From a virus, in the IMG/VR virus record IMGVR_UViG_3300017923_000012, positions 1 to 24,663 of that record: a DNA stretch of 24,663 bases; one strand, written 5' to 3'. This document shows positions 3,156 through 9,889 of this stretch, one piece after another. Below the pieces are notes generated by a model. It was given only the letters and a program-made list of their open reading frames with translations, was not told where the DNA came from and did not search any database. Made by a program: the position numbers and the translations under genes. Position 1 is the first letter of the stretch. Each line of letters starts with the position of its first letter.

Positions 3156-5219
3156 ATGAAAAACGCGTACACAGCGCAAGAGATTGCCAGGGTTTTAGGA
3201 AGAACAAGGTCTGCGGTGGTGCACCGCGCCAAAAATGGCCGGTGGCCACAGGCCAAATGCGGTCGTCAGCGGCCGTATGTCGCGGCATCGTTGCCCGACG
3301 ATGTCCGGGCGGCGATCGTGGAGTACGAACTGGCTGAAGCGGCTCCGGCGGTTGCCGAGCCGCTCTTGCCGGAGGCTTCCAAGGGGAGCGCTCCGGCGAT
3401 CGACCCGGCCCGGCTCAAGGACTGGCAGCGGGAAATCCGGGACGCGAGGCTGGCCGTGCTTTCTATGGTGCAAAGCATGGCCCCGGTCTACGGCGGGATT
3501 ACCAAGGCCGAGCGTGCCCTGGCCGAGGCCAGCGGCGCTGACCGGCCTGGTGAGCGGCTTTCGCCGGAGCTGATCCAGGCCTTGCGCACGGCCAATGCCC
3601 GCCGTGGGGACTCCTGCCATGTGGGAGCGTCTACGCTGCGGCTTTGGCGGCGGACAAGGGACAAGCACGGCCCGGACGGGCTGGCCCCGGCCCCGATGGA
3701 GCGGCAGGCGGGCGACGATCCGGACTGGCTCCCGATTTTCATGAAGCATTTCTGCCGCCCGACAAAGCCCAGCGTGGCGCAGGTCTACGAATATGTGGCC
3801 AAGACCTGCAACGTCCGAATGCCCTCCCTGCGGACAGTGCAGCGGCAGATCCAGAATCTGCCGACGATGCGGGTGTTCAAGGGCCGGATGGGGCCACGGG
3901 AGATCAAGGCGCACACGGCCTACGTCAAGCGGACGACGGACGAGCTGCTGCCGGGCGATGTGTATACCGCTGACGGGCACAAGGCGGACCTGGAGGTTCA
4001 GCACCCGGAGCACGGCCAAGCGGTGCGGCCGGAGATCATCTCTGTTTTGGACGTGAAGACTCGCAAATGCGTCGGCTTCTCAGTGGAGCTGCACGAGCGG
4101 GCCTGGCTGGTGGCGGACGCCCTGCGTGTGGCCTGCCAGTGGAACGGCGTTCCGGCGATTTTTTACGTGGACAATGGCTGCGGATTCAAAAACGAACTGC
4201 TCAACGGGCCGGCCCTGGGCATCCTGCACCGGCTGGGCGTAACTCCCAAGTATTCGATTCCCTACAATTCTCAGGCCCGGGGCATTATCGAGAAATTCAA
4301 CGACACCTGCTGGGTGCGCTCCGCCCGGGATGTCCCGTCTTACGTAGGCTGGGACATGGACAAGGAGGCCAAGCAGAACGTCTTTAAACGGTCGCGCAAG
4401 GAGCTGGCCGAATACGGCACCAGTAAGTGGCTGATGCAATGGGAGACGTTCCTGGCTTGGGTCATGGAGCAGATCATGGACTACAACCACCGCCCCCACT
4501 CCGAACTGCCCAAGACCCGGGATGCGCAGACGGGGGCGAAGCGGCATATGGCTCCGGTCGAATACTGGAACTGCCTGGCGGACCAGACGGAGATCATCTG
4601 CCCCACCCAGATTGAACTGGACGACATTTTTCGGCCCTACGTCACGCGGACCTGCCGCCGCTGCCTGGTCCGGGCCTACAACGGCGAATACTACGCGCCG
4701 GAGCTGCAGGACTATCACGGCGAGCAAGTCCGGGTGGGTATCGACATTTTCAATCCGCAATGGGTCTGGGTGCGGGATTCGGAAGGCCGGATGATCACCA
4801 CGGCCCAGCTCGACGCTCACGCCAGGCCGTATTTTCACCCCTCGGTGGTGGAACAGGCGCGGGAAAAGCGCGCCCAGGAGCAGCTCAACAGGCTGGACGA
4901 ACGGAAGGCCAAGGTCCTGGAAGTGGCCCAGAAGCGGATCGAAAACGGGGGCGAGCCGGCCCCGCAACCGGAAGAGCTGCCCGCAGCGGCCCAGGAAGCC
5001 CAATTCGAACTGGAGCGGGAGCTATCTGAGGAGACACCGAAGGTGCCGGAAACCGAACTGGAGCGATTCAGGCGGGCCAAGCAACTGGAAGAGCGGATCG
5101 CTGCCGGGGAGGCTGTCTCGGACCAGGAGAGCACGTGGTTGAGACGGTATCAGCAATCCGGCGAATACGGCGGATATCAGGACATGTACGAGGACTTTGG
5201 CGAGGCGGTCTTCGGGTAG
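3156..5219 (+). CDS. A: Mu-type DDE transposase A
   Basis: A 687-residue integrase/transposase. Residues 1-60 resemble the winged-helix Mu end/enhancer-binding domain (TAQEIARVLGRTRSAVVHRAK, split across two helices). The catalytic RNase H-fold core has Asp273 (TADGH), Asp339 (YVDNG) and Glu379 (GIIEKF), close to Asp269/Asp336/Glu392 of MuA. A C-terminal beta-barrel region and a charged helical tail follow; the tail would contact the ATPase B and ClpX. The start was set at ATG 3156, preceded by GGAGG; the frame is open to 3096 but the added residues look non-coding. The protein binds both prophage ends, nicks and strand-transfers them. The B gene follows 42 bp downstream. Confidence 0.95.
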   Translation: MKNAYTAQEIARVLGRTRSAVVHRAKNGRWPQAKCGRQRPYVAASLPDDVRAAIVEYELAEAAPAVAEPLLPEASKGSAPAIDPARLKDWQREIRDARLAVLSMVQSMAPVYGGITKAERALAEASGADRPGERLSPELIQALRTANARRGDSCHVGASTLRLWRRTRDKHGPDGLAPAPMERQAGDDPDWLPIFMKHFCRPTKPSVAQVYEYVAKTCNVRMPSLRTVQRQIQNLPTMRVFKGRMGPREIKAHTAYVKRTTDELLPGDVYTADGHKADLEVQHPEHGQAVRPEIISVLDVKTRKCVGFSVELHERAWLVADALRVACQWNGVPAIFYVDNGCGFKNELLNGPALGILHRLGVTPKYSIPYNSQARGIIEKFNDTCWVRSARDVPSYVGWDMDKEAKQNVFKRSRKELAEYGTSKWLMQWETFLAWVMEQIMDYNHRPHSELPKTRDAQTGAKRHMAPVEYWNCLADQTEIICPTQIELDDIFRPYVTRTCRRCLVRAYNGEYYAPELQDYHGEQVRVGIDIFNPQWVWVRDSEGRMITTAQLDAHARPYFHPSVVEQAREKRAQEQLNRLDERKAKVLEVAQKRIENGGEPAPQPEELPAAAQEAQFELERELSEETPKVPETELERFRRAKQLEERIAAGEAVSDQESTWLRRYQQSGEYGGYQDMYEDFGEAVFG

Positions 5220-5261: not shown

Positions 5262-6014
5262 ATGTCAGCAGAGGAGTTGAAAGTCAACGGCAATGGCAAC
5301 GGGACCATCGCCCCCTTGCAGAACGTGGCCCTGTTCACCTCGCTGGTGCGCAGGACGGTCAACCGCCCCGGCCACCTGCCGGGTATGGCCACATTCCACG
5401 GGTACTCGGGCTACGGCAAGACCTTTGCCGCCACCTACGCCGCGAACAAATTCGGGGCGCGGTACATCGAAATGGGCGAGTCCTGGACCAAAAAGAAATT
5501 GTGCGCCTCGATCCTGACAGAACTCGGAGTCCAGGCCCAGGCCCGGACCGTGTCGGACCAGATGGACCAGATCATCGAGGCCCTGGCTATCGACGGGGTC
5601 CCGTTGATCATCGACGAGGCCGACTACCTGGCTACCAAGGGGCTGATCAACCTGGTCCGGGAGATCCACGACAAGTCCGGCGCCCCGGTCCTGCTGATCG
5701 GCGAAGAGGGTTTGCCGGGCGCGCTGTCCAAGTGGGAGCGGGTGCACAACCGCATGTTGGACTGGGTTCCGGCGCAACCCTCCACGTTGGCCGACGCCAA
5801 ACACTTGGCCCGGCTCTATTGCCCGCACGTGAGCGTCGAGGACGCGCTGTTGGAGCAGATTACCGAAGCGGCCTCGGGCCGAGCGCGGCGGATCTGCGTC
5901 TCTCTGGAGCGGGTGCGCGAACTGGCGTCTGTGGAGGGCCTGGACAGTGTTGGCCCCGCCCAGTGGGGCAAACGGGAATTCTTTCGCGGCCAGCCGCCGG
6001 CGAGGAGGAAATAA
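5262..6014 (+). CDS. B: Mu B-like AAA+ ATPase, transposition target protein
   Basis: A 250-residue P-loop ATPase with Walker A GYSGYGKT (47-54), Walker B PLIIDEAD (114-121) and a conserved GEEGLP loop around the sensor region. B of Mu coats target DNA, delivers it to the transposase and gives target immunity by being displaced near the element's own ends. The C-terminal part (about 190-240) should hold the DNA-binding helices. Ribosome-binding site CAGGAGGG precedes ATG 5262. The gene overlaps the next by one base (TAATG), so they are co-translated. Confidence 0.93.
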   Translation: MSAEELKVNGNGNGTIAPLQNVALFTSLVRRTVNRPGHLPGMATFHGYSGYGKTFAATYAANKFGARYIEMGESWTKKKLCASILTELGVQAQARTVSDQMDQIIEALAIDGVPLIIDEADYLATKGLINLVREIHDKSGAPVLLIGEEGLPGALSKWERVHNRMLDWVPAQPSTLADAKHLARLYCPHVSVEDALLEQITEAASGRARRICVSLERVRELASVEGLDSVGPAQWGKREFFRGQPPARRK

Positions 6015-6938: not shown

Positions 6939-7111
6939 TGAACCGGTCCACAGCGATGCTCTTAGCCAGGTTTTTACTCCGGTTTTACGACCTGTTTGAA
7001 GGCTGGCTGGAGAAGAACGAAATCGCTCCTGAGGAAGGCGGTGTCATTATTTCCGAACTCGAACGCATAGAAAACGAAGGGGATTCGCAATGCTGTACGA
7101 AAAGATCATGA
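6938..7111 (+). CDS. Small early protein of unknown function
   Basis: A 57-residue, amphipathic helical protein (LARFLLRFYDLFEGWLEKN) with an acidic C-terminal half. AAGGAGGG precedes two adjacent ATG codons at 6935 and 6938; the second has the better spacing. It overlaps its neighbours on both sides, the typical packing of this operon, which supports expression. No family is recognised. Similar short ORFs fill the semi-essential early region of Mu. Confidence 0.6.
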   Translation: MNRSTAMLLARFLLRFYDLFEGWLEKNEIAPEEGGVIISELERIENEGDSQCCTKRS

Positions 7112-7335
7112 GCGTTTCGCAGGCCCTGTCCTGCCTGGCCGGGCAAGTCAGCGAAGAACAGTGGCAACTGATCAAGATGGCCAAGGGCGAGCTGATGGAC
7201 GCGGCGGATATGGCCGAAGAACTGGAAGGAGCGCCCTTGTATGCCGTGCGGGGCTTGTCGCGGACGCAGCCTCCGGCCTGTTTGCTGGCCAAGGACCAAG
7301 ACCAGACAGCCTGCCGCTGCAAAACCAACACATAA
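7090..7335 (+). CDS. Small early protein of unknown function
   Basis: An 81-residue protein whose first 50 residues are helical (SVSQALSCLAGQVSEEQWQLIK, then KGELMDAADMAEELEG). The last third has low complexity and ends with CRCKTNT, which may reflect drift into leader sequence. GAAGGGG lies upstream of ATG 7090, and the gene overlaps the preceding one by 22 bases. It stops 13 bases before the Gam gene. No function can be assigned. Confidence 0.6.
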   Translation: MLYEKIMSVSQALSCLAGQVSEEQWQLIKMAKGELMDAADMAEELEGAPLYAVRGLSRTQPPACLLAKDQDQTACRCKTNT

Positions 7336-7348
7336 ATCAGGAGGATAT

Positions 7349-7849
7349 ATGAGCTGTCAGAGTTGGAATGACGTGGATGAGGCGATCAAGCGGATGGGTG
7401 AGCTGGATATCGCTATGGAGCGCATCCAGGGTGATGCGACCATCCGCATCAACGAGGTCAAGAACGAGGCCAAACGCAAGGCCGCCCCGCTCTCTGAAGA
7501 GCGCAAGAAGCTGGAAAAGGCGGTGCAGGCGTTTTGCGAAGCGCACAAGGATGAATTCGCCAAGAGGCGGTCCAAAGCGCTTAACTTTGGAACCATTGGC
7601 TACCGCCTGGTGCGCTCCGTGGCTGTGCCCCGCGACAAGGACAAGGTGGCTGCGCTGATCAAGTCCCTGAAGGCGTTTGGGCTGCAGGGGTGCATCAAGA
7701 TTGAGGAGAAGCCGGACCGGGACAAAATCGCCGAACAGGACGACGCGACCATCGCCAAGCTGGGATTGAAGCGCACGGTCAAGGACAATTTCCGGGTGCA
7801 GCCGGACATGGAGCGGATTCAGGACACGGCGGAGGTGGTCAATGGCTGA
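7349..7849 (+). CDS. gam: Mu Gam-like host nuclease inhibitor
   Basis: A 166-residue protein of the Mu Gam family, Ku-like dimers that bind double-stranded DNA ends and block exonucleases such as RecBCD. A long N-terminal helical arm (residues about 8-70, KNEAKRKAAPLSEERKKLEKAV) is followed by the family's short beta region FAKRRSKALNFGTIGYR and then a helical C-terminal part. AGGAGG stands 6 bases before ATG 7349. The leader AAACCAACACATAAATC resembles that of the B gene. The length is close to Mu Gam (174 residues). The stop overlaps the next start. Confidence 0.9.
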   Translation: MSCQSWNDVDEAIKRMGELDIAMERIQGDATIRINEVKNEAKRKAAPLSEERKKLEKAVQAFCEAHKDEFAKRRSKALNFGTIGYRLVRSVAVPRDKDKVAALIKSLKAFGLQGCIKIEEKPDRDKIAEQDDATIAKLGLKRTVKDNFRVQPDMERIQDTAEVVNG

Positions 7850-8156
7850 GAAGCGCTTTCCAGAGAAGGTCGGGATCGTTGAGGCGTATGACGCCCTGGC
7901 CGCGCTGGATGGCCCTCCGGTGGCAGGGAGCCATAAGGAGGCCCTCGCGTGTCTCAAGCGATTCGTTTCTCAGGCAGAGGGTACTGAGGACGCCATAACC
8001 GTGACCATCACAGAGGGTGCCGATGGAGGGTCTCAGGTTTCTTCGTATTTCGGGCCTGAGGGGCTGGACAGATGGGAGGACACCCATTCCGGATTGCTCT
8101 GGCTGTCCATGATGCGCGCGGCTACTGACTCGAACAGCTTCGAGGTCGATGACTAA
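7842..8156 (+). CDS. Unknown acidic protein upstream of the hammerhead ribozyme
   Basis: A 104-residue acidic soluble protein without recognisable motifs; a helical first half (SHKEALACLKRFVSQAE) is followed by a strand-rich middle (AITVTITEG). It starts inside the end of gam (8-base overlap), so the two are translationally coupled. Its TAA stop (8154-8156) lies inside stem II of the ribozyme that follows. Ribosomes terminating here would therefore unfold the ribozyme, linking translation of this gene to cleavage of its own message; this coupling is inferred. Confidence 0.7.
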   Translation: MAEKRFPEKVGIVEAYDALAALDGPPVAGSHKEALACLKRFVSQAEGTEDAITVTITEGADGGSQVSSYFGPEGLDRWEDTHSGLLWLSMMRAATDSNSFEVDD

Positions 8157-8229
8157 AGCGAAATCCGGCGCTCAGGCTCTTGAGTGCCGGATCGTCCGAG
8201 GGTGACGCCTCGGGCCTGACGAGCAGTCA
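8150..8229 (+). ncRNA. Type II hammerhead self-cleaving ribozyme
   Basis: All conserved core bases are present in order. GAAA (G12-A15.1) is at 8160-8163. Stem III is 8164-8174 with 8181-8191, 11 bp and a 6-nt loop. U16.1 (8192) pairs with A15.1, and cleavage-site C17 is 8193. Stem I is 8194-8201 with 8208-8215, 8 bp and a 6-nt loop. CUGACGA (C3-A9) is at 8216-8222. Open stem II pairs G8223-C8159 and C8224-G8158, then, beyond an AAA bulge, 8225-8229 with 8150-8154. Because the ends lie in stem II it is a type II hammerhead. Predicted cleavage lies between 8193 and 8194. The bulge in stem II and loop I are placed for the usual tertiary contact. Confidence 0.9.
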
Positions 8230-8394
8230 GACGGTCATTGCCAGTGCCTTTGCTCCAATCCCCGAGGAGGCCCGGCGAATCCACCGGCGGTGTTGCTCCT
8301 GCCAGCCGGTACGAGCCAGCGGCCGCTGTAGCCGGGAGAGTGTGTATCGGGGAGCGTTTCATCACACGGGGCGGGCTGCGGCTCGCCCCTTTTC
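8194..8394 (+). ncRNA. Candidate ribozyme-released structured RNA
   Basis: From the predicted hammerhead cleavage point to the terminator, about 200 nt lack a convincing ORF but hold further structure. AGGAG-GCC(C)GG (8265-8275) pairs with CCGGC (8284-8288) and CTCCT (8296-8300), and a 12-bp perfect palindrome CAGCGGCCGCTG lies at 8317-8328 between CCGG blocks. Cleavage plus intrinsic termination would give a discrete RNA with a 5' hydroxyl and a hairpin at each end. A weak 81-codon frame across it was not accepted. Its function is unknown. Confidence 0.5.
8368..8393 (+). terminator. Intrinsic terminator
   Basis: GGGGCGGGC (8368-8376) pairs with GCTCGCCCC (8381-8389; one G-U pair) around the tetraloop TGCG and is followed by TTTT (8390-8393). 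The short U-tract suggests partial read-through to the following genes, which otherwise lack an obvious promoter. Confidence 0.75.
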
Positions 8395-8409
8395 ACAGGA
8401 GGAGAAGCG

Positions 8410-8676
8410 ATGTCTCACAAAATAGTTCACGAGTTTCTGCAGCAGTTCGGTGTGGAGTCGTTCGCGGAATTGGAGGAGTACGTTTCACGTCTCCAGGAGA
8501 TCAGCGAGCAGGCCGAACAGTTGCGCGGGCAGGTGCAGGACCTCATCGCCGCCCGGATGGGCCTGGAGCAGGCCCTGGCCGCCGAGCGCGTGGAACGGGT
8601 CGCCATGGAGCAGTCGCTTCGGGCCGAAATTCGCGATCTGGACGCAGAGATTCAGGCGGCTCAGGTGTATTTGTGA
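8410..8676 (+). CDS. Small coiled-coil protein
   Basis: An 88-residue protein that is almost entirely coiled coil from residue 20 onward (SRLQEISEQAEQLRGQVQDL, then RVAMEQSLRAEIRDLDAEI). AGGAGG stands 8 bases before ATG 8410, directly after the terminator, so this gene is well placed for its own translation on read-through transcripts. The stop shares bases with the next start (TGATG). No named family is recognised; oligomerisation is likely. Confidence 0.75.
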   Translation: MSHKIVHEFLQQFGVESFAELEEYVSRLQEISEQAEQLRGQVQDLIAARMGLEQALAAERVERVAMEQSLRAEIRDLDAEIQAAQVYL

Positions 8677-8895: not shown

Positions 8896-9471
8896 ATGAA
8901 GGCCACCTGTCCTATTTGCGGCAATTATGGGCCGCTGGAGTCGTTTCTGGCCCAGGAGGATTACAAGAAGGCGCTGGCGGTGATCACTGCATTGCCCGGG
9001 GATCTGCCCCGCCAGACCGTTCGCTATCTGGCCATGTTTCGCAAGCCCGGATCGGACCGCGCCCTTACCGGCCCCAGGGCGCTGAAGATCGTCGAAAGAC
9101 TGCGGGACCTGGCCAATGCTGAACAGATTCAATGGAAGGGAAACCGGGTGTATGCCAACAGCCCCAAATATTGGGAGCAGGCTATTCAGGTCATTTTGGA
9201 CCGGGACGATCAGGGCAAGATCGAGCGCCCGCTGGATGGCCACAACTACCTGCGGGCCATCGCCTACGAGCAGGCATCCAAGGGGTTTGAGGCGGCTCAC
9301 AGGGAAAAAGAGCACAATGCCAATCGGAGGGCGGGCACGTCCGAGCTGCCGTCCGAAACTGAGCCCCGCCGCGATGACGCGGACAGGCCCATGTCTACTG
9401 CTGAGGCATTGGAGAAGACGCGGGAGCATTTAAAGGGGTGGCGTGAAAGATTAGGGGGTGGACATGAGTAG
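8896..9471 (+). CDS. Mu-like early protein with N-terminal CxxC
   Basis: A 191-residue protein starting with a small zinc-ribbon half (Cys5-x2-Cys8, CPICGNYG). A helical region follows (residues 20-120, with ALPGDLPRQTVRYLAMFRKPG, then GRALKIVERL-like helices), and then a charged disordered tail. Proteins with this build lie just before gemA in BcepMu-like phages. No reaction is known; nucleic-acid binding is a guess from the CxxC. It overlaps the next gene by 8 bases. There is no clear ribosome-binding site at ATG 8896, so the exact start is less sure. Confidence 0.75.
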   Translation: MKATCPICGNYGPLESFLAQEDYKKALAVITALPGDLPRQTVRYLAMFRKPGSDRALTGPRALKIVERLRDLANAEQIQWKGNRVYANSPKYWEQAIQVILDRDDQGKIERPLDGHNYLRAIAYEQASKGFEAAHREKEHNANRRAGTSELPSETEPRRDDADRPMSTAEALEKTREHLKGWRERLGGGHE

Positions 9472-9889
9472 ACAGCGCACGACCAGGCGAGGGGCCTTGG
9501 CCAAGGTCCATATCGCCAAAAAATCGCTGGGCCTGTCCGACGAGGAGTACCGAAACCTCTTGGAAGCGAAATTCGGTGCCGGATCGGCCAAAGGGCTAAG
9601 CCTTTCGCAACTCCAGCAGCTGGCCGACCACTTCCAGGCCCTGGGCTGGGAGCCAGCCCCGCCAAGGCGGTCCGGGCGCAAGCCAAAAAATATGGATACC
9701 AGGCGTGGCCCTCTCCTTTCCAAGATCGAGGCCTACCTGGCCGAGGCCGGGCGGCCCTGGGAGTATGCCGATGCCATTGCCAAGCGGGTTTGCAAGGTGG
9801 ACAAGGTGTCCTGGTGCAAGGCCGAGCAGCTGCAGAAGGTGGTGGCAGCCCTGGCCTACAACGCCAAACGGGAAGGGAGGCGTGTGTAG
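9464..9889 (+). CDS. gemA: GemA family regulatory protein (DUF1018)
   Basis: A 141-residue protein of the Mu GemA family. The family start is clear: a basic N-terminus, AKVHIAKKSLGLSDEEYRNLL at residues about 13-33, then SLSQLQQLADHFQALGW. A C-terminal domain follows (SKIEAYLAEAGRPWEYADAIAKR...VSWCKAEQLQKVVAAL). In Mu, GemA alters expression of host genes and DNA supercoiling-related functions and precedes mor. ATG 9464 with AGGGGGTGG upstream was chosen over the in-frame GTG at 9458. The stop overlaps the GTG of mor. Confidence 0.9.
   Translation: MSRQRTTRRGALAKVHIAKKSLGLSDEEYRNLLEAKFGAGSAKGLSLSQLQQLADHFQALGWEPAPPRRSGRKPKNMDTRRGPLLSKIEAYLAEAGRPWEYADAIAKRVCKVDKVSWCKAEQLQKVVAALAYNAKREGRRV

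Follow-up and report, generated by a model that had tools for sequence, protein, structure and literature searches.

A type II hammerhead ribozyme among the early genes of a Mu-like phage, with a candidate structured leader behind it

What might a self-cleaving RNA do in the middle of the early genes of a Mu-like phage, and how firmly can such an element be recognized? We address these questions at one locus of an IMG/VR viral record of 24,663 bases, analysed whole and referred to here as the window. The window encodes a Mu transposase, Gam, GemA, a Mu portal (Portal_Mu), Mu protein F, and a contractile tail sheath, and the contig is therefore a Mu-like phage. For the transposase and Gam, the phage collection contains only distant relatives (at best 36% and 47% identity, respectively), and two transposase scans of genome contigs found no relative. 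Gam (7343-7849) is nearest to Helicobacter and Campylobacter Mu-like phages, at 42-47%, and the transposase (3156-5219) matches mainly Pseudomonas phages, at about 35%; these affinities suggest a mosaic ancestry. The genes of the locus are as follows.

7343..7849, + strand: gam (Mu host-nuclease inhibitor, DNA-end protection; PF07352, E 9.3e-39), the part with relatives of an open frame that runs from 7241
7842..8156, + strand: 104-aa gene upstream of the ribozyme, its start overlapping the end of gam
8397..8676, + strand: 88-aa gene (8410-8676) with the Shine-Dalgarno sequence AGGAGG (8397-8402)
8896..9889, + strand: the next conserved genes, a 191-aa PHROG 2161 gene (8896-9471) and gemA (9458-9889)

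The initial annotation of this DNA placed a complete type II hammerhead in a Mu-like early operon and proposed a covariance-model search as a check. This search, covering the whole window and all 4227 Rfam families, returned RF02276 (Hammerhead_II) at 8156-8232 on the + strand, with 49.9 bits against a cut-off of 37, E = 1.1e-7, and coverage of the full model (1-66 of 66). The match above the curated cut-off, together with the gene context, supports the claim. No other RNA family or ribozyme was found in the 24,663 bases by the Rfam scan, even at E<=1. The annotation went too far in describing the element as outside routine annotation and missed by gene callers, since a standard Rfam scan detects it above the curated cut-off. 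Its setting was likewise presented as unusual; both type and genomic setting are already published (PMC3088659; PMC10085705). Thus the kind of element and its place are known, and what is new is the ribozyme in this phage. Its parts are listed below.

8156..8232, + strand: type II hammerhead ribozyme (RF02276)
8158..8163, + strand: 3' strand of stem II (GC, 8158-8159) and core GAAA (8160-8163), with A15.1 at 8163 (sequence and cmscan alignment)
8163..8192, + strand: stem III hairpin, 12-13 bp (8163-8175/8180-8192), which would be the 3' end of the upstream product
8193..8194, + strand: predicted cleavage site, 3' of C17 (8193), by analogy with the family
8194..8215, + strand: stem I hairpin, 8 bp (8194-8201/8208-8215), loop GUGACG, which would be the 5' end of the downstream product
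8216..8224, + strand: core CUGACGA (8216-8222) and 5' strand of stem II (GC, 8223-8224) (sequence and cmscan alignment)
8158-8159/8223-8224, + strand: stem II, 2 bp, with G10.1-C11.1
8203..8229, + strand: pseudoknot of loop I UGAC (8203-8206) with the 3' tail GUCA (8226-8229), 4 bp (alignment)
8216..8230, + strand: competing hairpin CUGAC/GUCAG, which would hide core and pseudoknot strand (minimum-energy fold)

The core elements CUGANGA, GAAA, U16.1, and H17 are all present in the type II order. The core positions named in the initial annotation (GAAA 8160-8163, U16.1 8192, C17 8193, CUGACGA 8216-8222) are exact in both the sequence and the cmscan alignment. Stems I and III are closed by loops and stem II is open with the pair 10.1-11.1, which is the type II layout. 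The previously described 8-bp stem I and open stem II with G10.1-C11.1 stand; stem III has 12-13 bp rather than the 11 reported. Absent from that description and present in the window is the pseudoknot between loop I and the tail, which is common in type II hammerheads, though not universal (PMC3088659). Its third pair, G-C in each of the 23 other sequences of the alignment, is A-U in the window alone, which amounts to a compensated double change.

The fold of the region is better than that of any of 200 shuffles (z -4.85), and its minimum-energy fold is not the ribozyme fold. The competing fold lies 7.2 kcal/mol below the ribozyme fold computed without the pseudoknot; the folding program cannot score pseudoknots. 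By our own estimate, a pseudoknot of four pairs could offset most of this difference, and the two folds may be near balance. Similar competing folds are seen in other members of the family.

Comparison of the same spot in related phages, also proposed in the initial annotation, gave a counterpart. The nearest phage, L002, has a Gam 82% identical to that of the window and carries a type II hammerhead at the same locus (43.8 bits). The genes directly flanking the ribozyme are unrelated between the two phages; gam and the later genes are related. Read from the alignment, the pairs changed in compensation number two in stem I, one in stem III, and one in the pseudoknot. Core pair 15.1-16.1 is U-A in L002 and the normal A-U in the window. 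Natural U15.1-A16.1 hammerheads are rare and have been shown to cleave, more slowly (PMC3088659; PMC10085705); L002 shares this variant at the same locus, whereas the window itself has A15.1-U16.1. Broken core bases in relatives had been named as a sign against the ribozyme, and the outcome is divided: L002 departs from the usual core, with the pair kept, and the cores of the other relatives are intact. These more distant phages (L005, L007, L008, L106-L108, L114, L138, and L143) each carry a type II hammerhead, or a pair of them, among their early genes. In L005, two of them (9078-9142 and 9687-9753) flank one gene, an arrangement reported by Perreault et al. (PMC3088659).

We placed the window within a wider survey. 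Scanning viral contigs with a DNA pattern picked out 71 stretches; a structural check by a scanner demanding core and stems kept about a third of them and rejected about two thirds. The contigs kept by the scanner, plus four relatives found via transposase or Gam, form a set of 27, and 23 contigs rejected by the structural check serve as controls. RF02276 matches all 27 selected contigs, three of them under the Rfam cut-off, and none of the 23 controls. Of the 27 selected contigs, 19 encode GemA, against none of the controls (Fisher P 1e-7; 2e-6 leaving out the four contigs found via transposase or Gam). This association agrees with the enrichment of hammerhead and twister ribozymes near Mu-like phage genes described in PMC10085705, which cites earlier work. 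In an alignment of 24 sequences, from the cleavage site to the tail, stem I and the pseudoknot are paired in every cell, seven pairs have changed on both sides, and 0 of 500 shuffles reach the covariation score.

The ribozymes are also tightly packed between genes. In 28 of 36 ribozymes, an open frame has its stop codon starting 3-12 nt ahead of C11.1, and a start codon with a Shine-Dalgarno sequence lies 14-25 nt past stem II in 23 of 36, so that the intergenic space is usually the ribozyme itself. Each feature occurs at about 5% of random same-strand places; this baseline consists of random positions, not of other intergenic elements, and part of the effect is therefore genome compactness. 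In the window, the TAA stop (8154-8156) of the 104-aa gene touches the 5' edge of the ribozyme, and the next start codon lies 185 nt beyond it, a distance shorter in most relatives. Neither the 104-aa gene (7842-8156) nor the 88-aa gene (8410-8676) has a family match or a relative in L002, and no promoter-like site was found between 7800 and 8950.

Two further arrangements were seen along the way. L018 (IMGVR_UViG_3300043331_001805) carries six type II hammerheads in about 6 kb (at 5818, 6899, 7618, 8655, 10631, and 12020), each with a gene start 14-24 nt on, the first such gene being an amidoligase (PF12224); this contig is without GemA, and all six hammerheads fall just under the Rfam cut-off. 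In L033, at about 4974-5150, a hairpin stands behind the hammerhead, followed before gemA by a sequence on the opposite strand that is tRNA-like in appearance.

The long interval between the ribozyme and the 88-aa gene holds a candidate leader and a hairpin.

8260..8352, + strand: conserved structured leader RNA (candidate), conserved in L002, with a probable copy in L103
8260-8265/8347-8352, + strand: leader P1 (CCCCGA/UCGGGG)
8271-8276/8331-8336, + strand: leader P2 (CCCGGC/GCCGGG), junction GAA/GUA
8266-8270 and 8337-8346, + strand: purine-rich internal loops of the leader, GGAGG and AGAGUGUGUA, respectively
8368..8393, + strand: 9-bp G+C-rich hairpin followed by UUUU, terminator-like, below the terminator scan threshold

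Two blocks of the leader are identical between the window and L002 (5679-5768): 19 bases, CCCGAGGAGGCCCGGCGAA, and 13 bases, GTAGCCGGGAGAG. Between these blocks the sequence diverges, and beyond them the genes are unrelated. A covariance model built from these two copies only was run on 677 kb of related loci; its best match, L103 2390-2463, reached 21.1 bits (E 0.083), with the next matches at 18.6. The L103 site had been spotted by eye before the model was run, so the match is a confirmation rather than a discovery, and its E-value alone is weak. This probable copy begins directly after the stop codon that ends one small gene and lies upstream of a second, within the same early region. It has one P1 pair and one P2 pair changed on both sides and is not accompanied by a hammerhead. 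The leader has no Rfam 15 match in the window at E<=1; in L002, the Rfam matches are weak and far below cut-off, and none is a + strand match to the leader. No relatives were found in the phage and plasmid collections.

Exact-pattern scans of viral contigs for the leader gave L002 and, in the last scan, L103. The other matches look like chance and were set aside; as some of them have 8-bp P2-like pairings, the leader pattern alone is weak evidence. A coding origin was rejected: the first block reads PEEARR in both phages, but the second falls in different frames and the few changes are nonsynonymous. Judged from the sequences, the constraint is thus more likely to act on the RNA (or DNA) than on a protein. 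A CUCCU/AGGAG pseudoknot is possible in the window and L002, not in L103, and we do not claim it. The simplest guess is that the leader regulates the small gene behind it. Tentatively, it could be a structured RNA, not yet described, through which Mu-like early operons control a swappable small gene, with the hammerhead trimming the 5' end of this RNA in this lineage.

The hairpin at 8368-8393 scores below the threshold of the terminator scan and was not accepted as an intrinsic terminator. Between the hammerhead and the next gene, the related phages L011 (near 7094-7220), L068 (near 7985), L078 (near 8855, - strand), and L012 (near 3600, - strand) each have a G+C-rich hairpin with CCUCCU or CCCUCCUC within the loop, then a T run. 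A GGAGG Shine-Dalgarno sequence follows the hairpin in L011, L068, and L012, so that loop and Shine-Dalgarno could pair in these three.

What, then, would the ribozyme do? We regard it as probable that a self-cleaving type II hammerhead lies in the early mRNA of this Mu-like phage and splits that message. The transcript would fold into stems I, II, and III, with the loop I/tail pseudoknot docking stem I on stem II, and the RNA would cut itself between 8193 and 8194; cleavage at this position is very likely. The cut would part the upstream message (transposase, gam, and a small gene) from the downstream one (a small gene, the PHROG 2161 gene, and gemA), a division of the operon that we hold to be somewhat better than an even bet. 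In a type II hammerhead, loops close both stem I and stem III, so each new end would carry a hairpin: stem III, with a 2',3'-cyclic phosphate, would terminate the upstream RNA, and stem I, bearing a 5'-OH, would start the downstream one. From general knowledge of bacterial RNA decay, the odds that these ends are protected seem about equal either way. If they resist decay as they should, the two halves could be kept and translated at different levels, and the downstream half would carry the further conserved folded leader before its next gene. Hairpin-ended products are inherent in the type II layout and would suit the division of an operon into separately stable parts.

In L002, compensatory changes affect stem I, stem III, and the pseudoknot despite unrelated flanking genes, and they favor a working ribozyme. 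Published type II hammerheads from prophages cleave in vitro, and the A. tumefaciens triple also does so in E. coli (PMC3088659). Against it stand the minimum-energy fold, which hides core CUGAC in a hairpin with the tail, and the slow type of core in L002. This fold is also the sole point in favor of chance resemblance, which we reject, its probability being negligible: the RF02276 E-value holds over the entire window and library, the sister phage has a hammerhead at the same locus, and 0 of 23 control contigs match. By sequence and structure, the window element is a real hammerhead of type II. A ribozyme in decay, or one that works very slowly, with little effect and retained by recent descent, would likewise fit the unfavorable fold, as well as the U15.1-A16.1 pair of L002, but the core of the window is intact, its pseudoknot has undergone a compensated double change, and stems are paired in both phages although neighboring genes have been exchanged. 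We judge this reading rather improbable. One published type II hammerhead cleaves at above about 1 per minute in 0.5 mM Mg2+ (PMC3088659).

The 5-bp competing hairpin takes on another meaning if the ribozyme is a conditional switch, in which the tail GUCA has two alternative partners, loop I in the active state and core CUGAC in the inactive one, and upstream translation decides. A ribosome at the stop codon of the upstream gene would cover the 5' part of the ribozyme, timing fold and cut; the stop codon at the ribozyme edge in the window and most relatives is in line with this. The competing hairpin is not conserved, however, since the tail is GCC in L002 and most relatives, and close packing may merely reflect compact phage genomes, which leaves a switch unlikely. 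Cleavage at 8194 could also provide the 5' end of a released small RNA, with the leader as its body and the hairpin at 8368-8393 as its 3' end. The conserved leader between ribozyme and hairpin, the 9-bp hairpin with UUUU, and the hairpin and T run between ribozyme and next gene in L011, L012, L068, and L078 speak for it; against it, the window hairpin is below the terminator threshold, that of L002 lacks a U run, and L103 has the leader without the ribozyme. Such an RNA is very improbable.

The splitting of the early message by a hammerhead is therefore the reading we carry forward, in a family that is already known. Prophage-borne type II hammerheads have been in the literature since 2011, and the window shares with those of RF02276 (Perreault et al. 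2011, PMC3088659) the core, the open-stem-II permutation, the stem lengths, the 2-bp stem II, the loop I/tail pseudoknot, and the prophage setting. It differs from the relatives examined by a stem III longer than most, by the A-U pair in the pseudoknot, and by its distance from the following start codon, 185 nt against the usual 14-25. Like the ribozymes associated with Mu-like genes in PMC10085705, it stands in the early region near gam and gemA; nothing essential differs, and the conserved leader does not figure in the part of that description consulted. The same paper states the role of hammerheads in Mu-like phages as open.

Two points go beyond the first reading of this locus. The tight packing of stop codon, ribozyme, and Shine-Dalgarno sequence is one, and its presence in most relatives points to mRNA splitting or translation coupling. 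The leader behind the ribozyme is the other, and the most useful new lead. With a ribozyme, a slow-core relative at the same site, exchanged flanking genes, and a conserved leader downstream, this pair of phages offers a test system for what hammerheads do in Mu-like early operons.
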